A stretch of 64,000 nt of DNA from Arthrobacter citreus (GTDB lineage: Bacteria > Bacillota > Bacilli > Bacillales > Bacillaceae_G). The translations under genes were made by a program, and so were the position numbers. The notes beneath the pieces are model-generated. The model saw only the letters and a program-made list of their open reading frames with translations, did not search any database and had not been told where the DNA came from. Positions 54,748 to 64,000 of the stretch are shown in pieces (positions within the stretch are counted from its first letter, which is position 1; each line of letters begins with the position of its first letter). The DNA lies in the NCBI GenBank assembly GCA_013200995.1, contig CP053688.1:3596001-3660000 (forward strand), given 5' to 3'.

Positions 54748-56142
54748 ATGAAGCGAACTATTTTGACATTAACTGCTTGTTTATCAATCCTACCTGTTTC
54801 AACTTCTTATGCTGCAGATCAATCATCATCGAGAGAATCATACATCCAATCACAACTAACAACCGTGAATTCATTTATTACCGATTCGACCGTTCGACAA
54901 GAAAAATATATAAGCATGGAGGAGTCTCCTTTTGCTTTTTACCGTGCGACTAATCCACTTTTCTATGCAGACCTAGGAACTGGTGTCATTCCTATACCTA
55001 GCACTTGGAAAACGACTGCAAATATTAAAACGTGGATTCAAGGAGATGCACATACTCAAAATATTGGTTATTTTGATAATAGTAAGGGCGAGGTCGTTTT
55101 TGATTTAAATGATTCAGATGAATCATATGTTGCACCATTTTATTGGGATCTAATTCGTTTTTCTACTAGCGTTTTCCTTATGGCAAATGAAGCCCCAAAT
55201 GTATCTTTATCAATGCAAGATAGACGTGATTTAGTAACAAGCTTTTTAACTACATATCAAGATACTTTAACAGCAGTAAATGGAAATAGCGGTGAAACTA
55301 CAACGCAACTGGATGAAGGAACATTAACAGGTGGATTCGTCCAAGATGAAATGCGAGATATAAAAAGCTCCGATAGTGTAGCTAAGCTATTAAATAAATG
55401 GACCACAACCACATCTGGAACGAGACTATTTAATTTTTCAAATAGTAATTTAAAGGCTGTAACATCTACGGAAAGATCAAACATTGTTAACAATTGGACA
55501 AATTATAAAGCTAGCATTTCTAGTTTTGTTTCTTCAAAGCCAAGTACATACTTTACGATCAAAGATATAGCTCGACGTTTACACTCAGGACTTGGAAGCT
55601 TAGGCGTAGACAAGTTTTATGTATTAATTGAAGGTGATACGACCTCACAAAGTGATGATGTGATCTTGGAAGTAAAAGAGCAACGGAACCCATCCATGTT
55701 TTTAGAAGGCAGCTTGTCGCAAGCTCAGTACAATTCATGGTTCCCAACGCATGCTAACCGGTCAAAAACAGGAGAATTAGCAGATGGAATTAAAGTGGAT
55801 AATCATTTAGGAGAAATCAATTTTAATAATAAGTCTTATCGCGTTCAACGAATTTCACCATGGGATGAAACATTTGATGCGGCTGACTTTAAAAGTAAAT
55901 CAGATGTCCAAGACTTTTTAAAGTACTCCGCAAAAGCTTTAGCATACGCTCATGCAAGAGCTGATAAGGACTATAACACAACATATGTAAACTATAATTT
56001 TGAGCAAGGAGTAATAGATGCAATTAATGCTTGGCCACAATTTAAAACAACCGTCCTTCAATTAAGTGAAAACTACTATAATCAAGTTTTAGCTGACTAT
56101 AGTTTATTTGAGGATTTAAGAAGTACTGGAAAGTTACAATAA
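54748..56142 (+). CDS. Secreted DUF2252 protein
   Basis: Exported protein of 464 residues with a signal peptide (cleavage near SYA-ADQ) followed by a DUF2252 domain, a kinase-like fold family. Characteristic segments are SPFAFYRATNPLFYADL, WIQGDAHTQNIGYFDN, VFDLNDSDESYVAPFYWDL and LEVKEQRNPSMF. The DFD-like and GDxHxxN motifs resemble aminoglycoside-kinase catalytic loops, but an extracellular kinase lacks ATP, so the activity is unknown. GGAGG precedes the ATG. Monocistronic. Confidence 0.88.
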   Translation: MKRTILTLTACLSILPVSTSYAADQSSSRESYIQSQLTTVNSFITDSTVRQEKYISMEESPFAFYRATNPLFYADLGTGVIPIPSTWKTTANIKTWIQGDAHTQNIGYFDNSKGEVVFDLNDSDESYVAPFYWDLIRFSTSVFLMANEAPNVSLSMQDRRDLVTSFLTTYQDTLTAVNGNSGETTTQLDEGTLTGGFVQDEMRDIKSSDSVAKLLNKWTTTTSGTRLFNFSNSNLKAVTSTERSNIVNNWTNYKASISSFVSSKPSTYFTIKDIARRLHSGLGSLGVDKFYVLIEGDTTSQSDDVILEVKEQRNPSMFLEGSLSQAQYNSWFPTHANRSKTGELADGIKVDNHLGEINFNNKSYRVQRISPWDETFDAADFKSKSDVQDFLKYSAKALAYAHARADKDYNTTYVNYNFEQGVIDAINAWPQFKTTVLQLSENYYNQVLADYSLFEDLRSTGKLQ

Positions 56143-60968: not shown

Positions 60969-61550
60969 TCATTTATTCATTTGAGCAAGAAATTCTCCAA
61001 GAAGATCATCCATATCTTCTTCTTTTTCATCGTCATCATTTGTTGTTATTTCATTCTTGCTGGCAGTTGTCCAATCAAAGTTCTCCAGATCAAGGTCATC
61101 ATGATTGACGCTTGTTTCAGCTTCCCTAGTCTGTTCCTTATAATTAGTCTCATCCATTATTTCATTTACGGCCGCAACTTCTTCATTTAAATAAAGTGCC
61201 TCATCAATTTCTAGCGAATTACTATTAATTGAAGTTAGAAGTGATGCGGTTCTAATTGGATTCATTAATAATTGGTAGACAATATTTCCTAATAATGCCT
61301 CCGAATGTTCATGTTTTAACCAATCTTTTTGGGCTTTACTTAAACTTTTAGGAAGTGGAATTGTTATTGTTTGTTTTTGCTTTGATAGAGAATTATTTAC
61401 CCCATCCATTACAAATTCGGCAATCTTACTAGAAAAGTTTCTCCTTTCAGTTTCCTTCAGATGTCGTAATTGTTTAACAATCTGATCAGGCGTATCTGAT
61501 GGGATACGGAAGGTTATGGGTTGCCCTCTCATCAGTTCTTTTTCATTCAT
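60969..61550 (-). CDS. Small partner of the ParM/StbA-like protein (putative ParR-type DNA binder)
   Basis: Protein of 193 residues encoded 9 bp after the actin-like gene. The first ~45 residues (ITFRIPSDTPDQIVKQLRHL, then ETERRNFSSKIAEFV) look like a ribbon-helix-helix domain. A second, similar strand-helix-helix stretch (TITIPLPKSLSKAQKDWLK, then NIVYQLLMNP) lies at about 75-110, hinting at a duplicated fold. The C-terminal half is acidic. This size and position match ParR/StbB-type adaptors that bind a centromere and cap the filament; the identification is by context, not strong sequence. GGTGA precedes the ATG. Confidence 0.7.
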   Translation of the reverse strand: MNEKELMRGQPITFRIPSDTPDQIVKQLRHLKETERRNFSSKIAEFVMDGVNNSLSKQKQTITIPLPKSLSKAQKDWLKHEHSEALLGNIVYQLLMNPIRTASLLTSINSNSLEIDEALYLNEEVAAVNEIMDETNYKEQTREAETSVNHDDLDLENFDWTTASKNEITTNDDDEKEEDMDDLLGEFLAQMNK

Positions 61551-61559
61551 AAAATCACC

Positions 61560-62738
61560 TTATTTTGTTTTAGCTAATTTTTGTTCTTCAGGTTGCTTTT
61601 CCTTTTGAGTTCTTCTATAAAAATCTGCAACTAGTTTGTAATATGCATTAGCCATCATCCAAATGCTTTCTTTTTCATCTTCAAAGAAATCGATATTATA
61701 TCCGTCTAGATTATTATTAAGCGTTTTAATATAATCCTTTAAGATAAGAGATCCTCCACCAATGAAATAGCATATTTCTGTTTGTGAGTTTTTTTGCCAA
61801 ATATTACGCAAATGGCGATATTGTTTTTTTGCTAACTCAAGAAGGATTCGATCAACAATATCATGAACGCTTGTCCTACTTCCTTTTACCATGATATGGT
61901 TACGATCACTTTTCTTAGTAATTATTTCAACTACATCCCTGCGGCTATCTAATTCAATCCCATGTCTTGAACGGATTTCTTCACGAATAGCTTCAAGTGA
62001 TTCTGATACACCTAGGTTGAAGCCTTGTGCTTTATCATCATCAACTTTTCTATTTTTAATAACTGCTACATCAGTAGATAAGCCACCTATATCTTGGATT
62101 AAGATTCTTTTATCAATAAGCGCCTTATTAATAATGTTTAAATCATTATCCATAACAAGATTAATGAATGCGGCAAATCCTTCTGGGTACACTTTAACTT
62201 CTTCAAACTTAATATTTACCTTTACCCCTTGGTATTTAGGTGTTACTAAAAACTCGACTTGGTGCACAGAGCTTAGCAATCTTGAACGATACCCTACATC
62301 CTTACCTTCTTTAACTTCTCTAAGTGGAAGACCTGTCCCTAAAATATATGTAGCATCAATAACATTATTTGAATTCTTATTATGTGTATTTTCCTCTCGT
62401 GCTGCGTCTAATGCTAAAGCGGCAAACAACATAATTAGTGTTTGATCTTCTTCAGATTTATTGCTTCCTGGATCTAATTCTGACGCATTGCTGCTTTTTG
62501 TTGCCAAATGTCCCACACGATAGATTGAATTATTTTCTTTTAAAGTAGGAGAGTGTACTCGAATATGAATACCATCAACCGGCTCTTGGTTGTCTAATTC
62601 CTCTACCCCTATAATTGGACGATCCTCCGTATCCCTAGCAATAATATTAGGAATATTAATTTCATTTTCCATCTTCCCAAAAATCCCTTTGAGTGAATCG
62701 TTTCCTACATCAATTGCCGCAATACGTGCCTTTACCAT
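61560..62738 (-). CDS. ParM/StbA-like actin-fold ATPase
   Basis: Actin-like protein of 392 residues, expected to form ATP-driven filaments that separate DNA copies. The start is ATG 62738, with AAAGGGA at good spacing; the open frame upstream to 62840 lacks support. Phosphate-1 motif DVGNDSLKG is at 10-18, phosphate-2 motif QDIGGLSTD at about 215-223, and adenosine motif FIGGGSLILK at about 325-334. These are the landmarks of the ParM/StbA (Alp7A/AlfA-like) group, normally found on plasmids. Here it sits among chromosomal genes. It is followed by a small partner gene and preceded by a dense hexamer array at 62878-63025. Confidence 0.9.
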   Translation of the reverse strand: MVKARIAAIDVGNDSLKGIFGKMENEINIPNIIARDTEDRPIIGVEELDNQEPVDGIHIRVHSPTLKENNSIYRVGHLATKSSNASELDPGSNKSEEDQTLIMLFAALALDAAREENTHNKNSNNVIDATYILGTGLPLREVKEGKDVGYRSRLLSSVHQVEFLVTPKYQGVKVNIKFEEVKVYPEGFAAFINLVMDNDLNIINKALIDKRILIQDIGGLSTDVAVIKNRKVDDDKAQGFNLGVSESLEAIREEIRSRHGIELDSRRDVVEIITKKSDRNHIMVKGSRTSVHDIVDRILLELAKKQYRHLRNIWQKNSQTEICYFIGGGSLILKDYIKTLNNNLDGYNIDFFEDEKESIWMMANAYYKLVADFYRRTQKEKQPEEQKLAKTK

Positions 62739-62800
62739 CAAAATCATCCCTTTCATTAATAGGTTAAAAAGTTTACGTATTAATAGATAATTCTGATAAT

Positions 62801-62830
62801 AGATTAACTTAAATTTAGCCTTTTGGTCAA
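62801..62830 (-). promoter_or_regulatory. Likely promoter of the partition operon
   Basis: On the minus strand, -35 TTGACC (62825-62830), 18-bp spacer and -10 TAATCT (62801-62806). It lies between the hexamer array and the start codon, so array binding could repress it. Confidence 0.6.
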
Positions 62831-62831
62831 T

Positions 62832-62845
62832 GTTCAGCACTGAAC
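62832..62845. promoter_or_regulatory. 14-bp inverted repeat beside the partition promoter
   Basis: GTTCAGCACTGAAC is a perfect dyad directly upstream of the -35 element. It may be an operator. Confidence 0.45.
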
Positions 62846-62877
62846 TATCATAAAAATGTAATTAAATTGTCATCTTG

Positions 62878-63025
62878 TATACAAAACAGTAAACACATAA
62901 ACATGTGTACAACTTTGTGTACAAGTATACTTTTCCGTATACAAAATGTTTACTTCTTGTAAACTTGTGTACAAATATGTGTACAACTGTTTACAAAACG
63001 TATACTTGTAAACAGAAATGTGTAC
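62878..63025. repeat. Fourteen-copy GTNNAC hexamer array (putative centromere)
   Basis: Copies start at 62878, 62889, 62905, 62917, 62925, 62937, 62948, 62959, 62967, 62979, 62989, 63000, 63008 and 63020. They are GTATAC (4), GTGTAC (5), GTAAAC (3) and GTTTAC (2), usually 8-12 bp apart. From 62917 on, spacings follow 8-12-11-11, 8-12-10-11, 8-12, giving a 41-42 bp higher period. It lies upstream of the actin-like gene, where parC/alfC-type sites occur. Confidence 0.88.
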
Positions 63026-63061: not shown

Positions 63062-63163
63062 TGTAGATAAATCGCTCCCACCTCTCAACTTGTGGATAGC
63101 TAAAAAAGATAATCAGCTTGTGGATAATTTATAATTGCAAAACCAAAGGCTAAGTTATCAACA
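63062..63163. promoter_or_regulatory. Cluster of four DnaA-box-like 9-mers
   Basis: On the minus-box orientation: TGTAGATAA (63062, one mismatch), TGTGGATAG (63091, one mismatch) and TGTGGATAA (63119, perfect). On the other strand: TTATCAACA (63155, one mismatch). Consensus is TTATCCACA or its complement. Spacing is 28-36 bp. It could bind DnaA. Confidence 0.5.
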
Positions 63164-63520
63164 AAACAAAAAATCTGACTCGTAATTTGTCGTTTGAAAT
63201 AGAACTTTGTTGTTTACTAACAGAAAATGAAATAAATTCTACGCAATTAATCAGAGCTTTCTATTTAAATAAACATCAGGTTTGATCCCTGCTACTCCTA
63301 GTCAGAAATTGCTTGTGAAATACAAACAACCTTTAGTAATAGCCCTTTTTCAGAATATAAATTACTGTGATACTAATTGTTTGATGAATGAATTTAATTA
63401 TTTATTAATAAGTAAAAGATTTACAGATATTCGCAAAATTACTGAGTATCTAATTTATGTTTTCTCGAACTAAAAGGGATTAATAAGGTGCTGTATTCCA
63501 TGATTTTTTATTTTGAAGAA

Positions 63521-63956: not shown

Positions 63957-64000
63957 ATGAAAAATGAAAAAGCAATCGTTGTATTTAGCGGTGGCCAAGA
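63957..64000 (+). CDS. queC: 7-cyano-7-deazaguanine synthase QueC, truncated at window edge
   Basis: The first 14 codons of QueC (MKNEKAIVVFSGGQ) are visible, with the PP-loop ATP-binding motif SGGQD starting. ATG 63957 is preceded by AAAGGAG. QueC makes preQ0 from carboxy-deazaguanine, using ATP and ammonia, in queuosine synthesis. The preQ1 riboswitch just upstream supports the call. The rest of the gene is outside the window. Confidence 0.92.
   Translation, partial: MKNEKAIVVFSGGQ

Follow-up and report, generated by a model that had tools for sequence, protein, structure and literature searches.

Why should a core bacterial chromosome carry a plasmid-style, actin-based partition cassette? 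The question is raised by a locus in a 64,000-nucleotide stretch of the Arthrobacter citreus genome (contig CP053688.1, positions 3,596,001 to 3,660,000; G000:C1:3596001-3660000), which we refer to as the window. Read along the minus strand, the cassette runs from an array of GTNNAC boxes through an actin-like gene to the gene for a small partner, here also called the adaptor. The original prediction, made from the letters of the window, took it for a complete segregation module of the actin type, set among core chromosomal genes, and offered three explanations, namely an integrated plasmid remnant, a phage-derived DNA-positioning device, or a chromosomal filament system with a new role. The module and its setting stand. 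The contig measures 5,207,261 bp within a 5.47 Mb genome of 3 contigs, the flanking genes are an EamA transporter and queC, and the presence of dnaA marks the contig as the chromosome, which removes the reservation that it might prove to be a plasmid or chromid. As to what the cassette does, we consider it reasonably probable that it is a functional, mostly vertically inherited chromosomal partition system of the ParMRC/Alp7 type that acts on its own origin-proximal region; DNA binding, filaments, and function are what we infer from the comparisons below.

The two proteins and the upstream array

The designation of the first gene as ParM/StbA-like is borne out by Pfam and PHROG matches, which place it in the Alp7A family. 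Its C-terminal Alp7A domain (Alp7A_like_C, 1.5e-36, 126 bits against a cut-off of 22) and its actin-like N-terminal domain (ALP_N, 1.9e-11, 44.8 bits against a cut-off of 26.3) both exceed the curated thresholds. PHROG 691 (phrog_691, a phage "partition protein") matches the protein at 6e-44, and the solved structures closest to it by sequence are ParMs (best 2e-8).

The proposal of a small ParR-type partner is likewise upheld, both by adjacency and by homology to the partners of plasmid Alp genes. The partner gene begins 9-44 nt past the last base of the actin-like stop codon (a gap of 8-43 bp) in 120 of 120 orthologous loci and is the sole constant neighbor (81/81 loci), the next commonest family within ~8 kb being found in 22 of the 81. 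A profile built from the adaptor matches the partners of all four plasmid Alp genes in the set searched (7e-20 to 1e-31) and those of 9 of 10 fetched paralogous Alp genes at E <= 0.001; the tails differ. Pfam holds no family at E <= 1 for the window's partner and gives weak, scattered matches across 44 adaptor members (best 0.0059), and a profile search of PDB sequences added nothing. When 44 adaptors are aligned, the N-terminal block and the second block are conserved, the long acidic linker has diverged, and the LLGDFLAQMNK end is near-invariant, with F187, L188, M191, and N192 identical in every member. An AlphaFold monomer of the adaptor (pLDDT 66) places helices at residues 22-34 and 39-48 (pLDDT ~70-80), which would suit a ribbon-helix-helix pattern, but shows no strand. 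ParR is built from a DNA-binding head and a filament-binding tail, and by analogy the adaptor would be organized in the same way (Table 1).

The array, described from the window as 14 copies with a higher period of 41-42 bp, holds up against random sequence and across relatives. In the window its boxes are spaced 12, 16, 12, 8, 12, 11, 11, 8, 12, 10, 11, 8, and 12 bp apart. The densest other 150 bp of the window holds 4 boxes, and 5000 first-order random sequences generated from the array stretch average 2.5 boxes and never exceed 9. It is also the sole such cluster in 400 kb around the genome's own oriC, where no other 150 bp exceeds 4 boxes. From the 120 orthologous loci, some of which are one genome fetched twice, we obtained 109 distinct upstream regions. 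Their 380 bp upstream carry a median of 11 strict boxes (minimum 4) against an expectation of 1.8 for the same dinucleotide make-up, and the observed number was reached by any of 300 random sequences in only 2 of the 109. The 380 bp past the partner gene served as a control and hold a median of 1 box and a maximum of 7 (120 loci). Distances between box pairs in the 109 upstreams peak at 8, 12, 20, 42, 54, 62, and 77-78 bp; the superperiod is conserved, and the alternating 12-8-12-10 spacing corresponds to four helical turns per 42 bp.

The letters of the boxes vary more loosely. GTATAC occurs 430 times in these upstreams, GTTTAC/GTAAAC 471 times, and GTGTAC/GTACAC 286 times, and GTTAAC is found 3 times, as if at least one GTA half-site were required. 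At the loci with few strict boxes that we inspected (L080, L093, L095, L062, and L108), boxes have drifted to GTTTGC, GCAAAC, GTATGC, and similar forms, and L080 retains an exact 12-8-12-10-12-8-12 register despite the drift. Such a combination of drifting boxes and fixed geometry suggests that site and protein have co-evolved. The picture is not that of a locus present at this site in all relatives with its motifs disrupted, the outcome that the original prediction had set against itself: the register is kept, and about half of the genomes sampled from the order lack the locus.

The array is found in the ~345 bp before the actin-like gene in nearly all loci; the exceptions are L080, where 4 strict boxes stand close to the gene, and L014/L051, where the largest cluster is at -930 and a second one of 10 boxes is at -237. 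A second GTNNAC cluster (5-11 boxes) is seen ~0.9-1.5 kb upstream in L041, L051, L062, L069, L072, and L073, as if the centromere had been duplicated.

Closeness to the gene is also what one would expect if this were a domesticated filament system with a role other than segregation (cell shape, sporulation, or replication control) whose array serves mainly as an operator for self-regulation. ParM systems often autoregulate through parC. By loose criteria, 80 of 81 upstreams have a candidate sigma-A promoter in the stretch from array to gene, and in 13 of the 80 a box overlaps or passes the candidate -35. We nevertheless regard this alternative as unlikely. The phased boxes (median 11) stop on the upstream side of the -35, at a median distance of 26.5 bp (46 bp in the window), which exceeds an operator's needs, and the adaptor has kept its near-invariant C-terminal tail. 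A generic promoter scan of the window showed no excess of sites (9 vs 10.2 expected), and the candidate was not among them.

Just beyond the array, at window positions 63088-63165, are three DnaA-box-like 9-mers, one of them perfect (TGTGGATAA). A DnaA link was rejected as a family feature, a perfect box being present in the 700 bp upstream in merely 3 of 77 loci, and so was a G-rich element upstream of the array (5/77 loci).

Table 1. Elements of the cassette, in window positions
Element	Positions	Strand	Basis
ParR-type adaptor gene, 193 aa	60969..61550	-	9 bp past the stop of the actin-like gene; homologous to plasmid Alp partners
Adaptor C-terminal tail, LLGEFLAQMNK, putative filament-binding peptide	60972..61004	-	Near-invariant in alignment; function by analogy with ParR
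Adaptor second conserved block (residues ~60-100), ITIPLPKxLSKxQRDWLKHEHSEALLGxIVYQLL	61251..61373	-	Alignment; common to plasmid partners
Adaptor residues ~10-50, conserved block QxITFRIPSDTPD...RRNFSSKIAEFV, ribbon-helix-helix-like by inspection	61401..61523	-	Alignment
Actin-like ATPase gene (Alp7A family; ParM/StbA), 392 aa	61560..62738	-	Pfam, PHROG, and PDB-sequence matches; orthologues
Candidate sigma-A promoter between array and actin-like gene, TTGACC, then GTTAAT 16 bp on (script) or TAATCT 18 bp on (by eye)	62801..62830	-	Loose criteria; weak alone
Centromere-like array, 14 GTNNAC boxes (mostly GTATAC/GTTTAC/GTAAAC/GTGTAC), ~42 bp superperiod	62877..63025		Count, spacing, conservation

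As for the surroundings, the EamA neighbor is supported by Pfam, and the match to queC, which is a neighbor of the cassette in the window's genus, begins at window position 63972. A search with a defense-system library gave no match. Farther away, a DUF2252 protein at window positions 54748-56142 has an N-terminus that looks like a signal peptide by eye.

Distribution, selection, and mobile relatives

The distribution of the cassette was surveyed in 249 genomes drawn evenly from the order and 398 drawn from the class. In the order sample 129 genomes match, 117 with orthologues at 74-100% identity and 12 with weak matches only, and the orthologues come from 31 of 47 sampled families; in the class sample an orthologue is present in 24 genomes, of which 8 belong to other orders. 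The closest named proteins belong to Gottfriedia and unclassified Bacillus, and the named carriers among the best 80 of 408 relatives include Rossellomorea, Cytobacillus, Priestia abyssalis, Heyndrickxia, Bacillus methanolicus PB1 (a non-pathogenic species; locus L058), Peribacillus, Sporosarcina, and Fictibacillus; some of the relatives' record names appear wrong, e.g., Pseudomonas sp. ISL-84. At all of the 120 loci fetched, both genes have intact reading frames. Selection is strongly purifying: across 143 non-independent pairs with 0.2 < dS < 1.2, the median dN/dS of the actin-like gene is 0.022 and that of the partner 0.073. Distances measured on one protein track those measured on the other (matrix correlation 0.86), and the tree contains supported clades for Fictibacillus and for Siminovitchia plus Rossellomorea with unclassified Bacillus. 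Inheritance is likely to have been mostly vertical.

These observations bear directly on the possibility that the cassette is what is left of a plasmid or phage that integrated recently. Both proteins have homologs in plasmid cassettes (the actin-like protein is 38-44% identical in 25 listed plasmids, and the partners match by profile), and for this reason the ultimate origin of the cassette is probably a plasmid. A recent remnant should show decayed genes, close mobile relatives, and a variable site. What we find instead are open frames throughout, the low dN/dS of the actin-like gene, a spread over 31 of 47 families, and a similar position in all 32 genomes in which it was determined (below). 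Among 72,556 plasmid records 63 hold a relative, every one below 60% identity, and among 50,697 phage records 6 have weak matches; at >= 60% identity neither collection yields any match. Recent capture of either kind is in effect refuted, and we give it almost no credence.

The same plasmid relatives raise a different alternative, that a chromosomal par locus acts on plasmids in trans, helping residents or destabilizing incomers with related centromeres. Related Alp cassettes are found on those 63 records, the host's own 250-kb contig C2 bears a paralogue, and a role in helping plasmids is left open by Ali et al. 2025 (PMC12270681). We judge such a role very improbable, in that neither C2 nor any of the four plasmid cassettes that were fetched (0-5 GTNNAC boxes in 450 bp upstream) has a comparable array near the gene, and in that it gives no reason for an origin-linked, one-sided position.

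The paralogue on C2, which is probably a plasmid, lies at G000:C2:188000-189079 (L132), is 39% identical, and has its own partner; its upstream repeats differ (GTRTTAC-like, by eye). Elsewhere, six paralogous Alp genes among the matches listed share a contig with dnaA, at 479-2340 kb from it. Paralogues of 29-35% identity at G011:C1:2349378, G137:C1:2497196, G261:C1:2797791, and G124:C1:3324354 lie 84-100% of the replichore from dnaA, near the terminus. Eight class-level genomes were checked, two of which have orthologues left of dnaA and six of which have paralogues: near the terminus in G430, ~0.4 Mb from dnaA in G467, ~1.3 Mb from it in G483, 131 kb to its left on the same strand as dnaA in G455, on another contig than dnaA in G420, and not placed in G607.

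Position relative to the origin

We located dnaA with TIGR00362 in orthologue genomes of at most 3 contigs or, for named loci, where the cassette contig exceeds 3 Mb, which gave 32 genomes (12 + 18, and 2 outside the order). The cassette lies left of dnaA in all 32, at -35 to -259 kb (median -90 kb, at most 13% of the replichore) and on the strand opposite to dnaA; 12 of the 32 distances cross contig ends and assume a circle. In the window's own genome the distance is 106 kb. Of the three explanations first offered, the chromosomal filament system is the one that we favor; the linkage of the cassette to the origin could not have been shown from a single window. With a single array in the 400 kb of chromosome searched, and that one next to the origin, the origin-proximal part of the chromosome is the most likely cargo, and the actin-like filaments may help to move or position its origin region. 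If the array were chiefly an operator, proximity to the origin could reflect gene dosage, but dosage leaves the constant side unexplained.

Two controls put this position in context. Of the 24 genomes with a queC gene (26 searched), 3 have it within 260 kb of dnaA. An ancestral neighbor of the cassette, pepT, is present in 18 of 32 genomes searched and sits in the zone from -260 to -30 kb in 9 of them; the cassette does so in all of these 18 (sign test p 0.004, uncorrected for phylogeny and with the zone defined from the cassette). The pepT comparison speaks against passive linkage, in which an ancestral insertion beside the origin was inherited with its neighborhood and position was never selected, since pepT lies outside the zone in 9 of these 18 genomes, whose cassette is inside it. 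On the other side stands residual synteny: 44 of 635 neighbor open reading frames (ORFs) from 69 other-lineage loci match the 400 kb around the genome's own origin, and of these 44, 31 fall around the cassette, at 3640-3669 kb. We hold passive linkage to be a somewhat doubtful account of the position, and one that is compatible with a working partition system.

The same synteny is one of several observations that weigh against our preferred explanation of an origin-directed partition system. Given this synteny, inheritance with little relocation could explain the position, which may in part be ancestral linkage. The cassette is dispensable, as 132 of the 249 order genomes are without an orthologue, and Metabacillus, Peribacillus, and Lederbergia do not form clades in the tree, which leaves room for some transfer. 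Another segregation system is probably present as well, since three parS-like sites with 1-2 mismatches to the consensus lie 7-23 kb left of dnaA and point to ParABS. On the structural side, the model of the actin-like protein is poor (pLDDT 51), the adaptor monomer model is without a ribbon strand, and a fold search with that model returned no PDB match at E <= 0.001.

The position also invites comparison with sporulation. In B. subtilis most RacA-binding sites are found in a region of 250 kb to the left of oriC, and the first DNA to be trapped in the prespore is likewise centered slightly left of oriC (PMC4949633); the zone occupied by the cassette coincides with this region. SpoIVA is present in all 117 order and all 8 class-level genomes that have an orthologue, and also in 241 of the 249 order genomes; the 8 without it all lack the cassette, which is suggestive only. 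From the shared zone and the SpoIVA-positive genomes, a sporulation-linked role in origin anchoring is an attractive sub-hypothesis, and we keep it at that level because SpoIVA is near-universal in the order and RacA-like proteins co-occur with the cassette. RacA-like matches (E <= 1e-6) are found in 77 of 117 cassette genomes vs 80 of the 132 others (Fisher p 0.43). Replacement of RacA by the cassette, for which mutual exclusion is expected, was rejected on these counts. Five genomes of one genus exceed the RacA model cut-off (G067, G134, G161, G236, and G258), and all are without the cassette; it is absent from the genus whose RacA is of the B. subtilis type (g46) and present in genus g63 of the same family. 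A term search in the text of a Tn-seq study of sporulation genes in another Bacillus finds no hit for ParM, StbA, or segregation (PMC12700454).

Proposed mechanism and known systems

By analogy with ParMRC and Alp7, we envisage that adaptor dimers would bind GTA.TAC boxes through an N-terminal ribbon-helix-helix domain. With boxes ~10.5 bp apart on average (12/8 and 12/10 alternation), the adaptors would come to lie on one face of a curved nucleoprotein scaffold, from which many C-terminal LLGDFLAQMNK tails could take hold of one end of an actin-like filament. As the filament grows or shrinks, driven by nucleotide, it would separate sister origin regions or hold the origin segment at a pole. 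Such a system would act alongside ParABS, perhaps above all in bringing the origin into the prespore. The broader proposal, of an actin-based segregation or origin-anchoring machine left of oriC that is spread over much of the Bacillales, operates beside ParABS in the RacA-anchoring zone, and occurs, among the genomes tested, only in those bearing SpoIVA, seems to us evenly poised. If it is true, it would change the view that origin segregation of the Bacillus type depends on ParABS, SMC, and RacA alone.

Among known systems, ParMRC of plasmid R1 likewise combines an actin-like motor, an adaptor, and an upstream centromere in one operon, but its sequence similarity is distant (1mwk, E 0.03), and our cassette is chromosomal and has another repeat geometry. 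The Alp7A-Alp7R-alp7C system of pLS20 and other plasmid Alp cassettes (e.g., that of pBM69) are closer, as they share the Alp7A_like_C domain with a small partner gene next to it. The partners of the four fetched plasmid cassettes are homologous over both conserved blocks, but they are 134-151 aa long and have different tails; plasmid Alp proteins are at most 44% identical among the matches listed, and the 0-5 boxes per 450 bp at the four fetched cassettes contrast with the median of 11 per 380 bp. ParABS (Soj-Spo0J-parS) likewise has an origin-proximal chromosomal centromere, with a motor and a site that differ from those of the cassette. RacA and its ram sites in B. subtilis also act in the ~250 kb left of oriC (PMC4949633), through multiple chromosomal sites and with no anatomical resemblance to the cassette.

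The nearest counterparts are the chromosomal ParMs (cParMs) of Ali et al. 2025, described for Desulfitobacterium hafniense and Clostridium botulinum, with Bt-cParMR-1 and -2 of Bacillus tropicus also listed and Bt-cParM described as a conserved feature of several Bacillus chromosomes (PMC12270681). Our locus has the same chromosomal pairing of a ParM-type actin gene with an adjacent ParR-like gene. Chromosomal ParMs are already known as a class, perhaps even this family. According to that paper, ParCMR has so far not been implicated in chromosome segregation, and the parts of it available to us give neither an origin linkage nor a Bacillus centromere (PMC12270681). A literature search that was thin on subscription papers found no report of the origin-linked position, the phased array or centromere, or the order-wide distribution. 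Whereas actin-type partition systems are known mainly from plasmids, here such a cassette has become a chromosomal, origin-linked locus, its position perhaps partly inherited. Its place in the origin zone and its centromere geometry are kept both inside and outside its own order, and together they make a role on the chromosome directly testable.

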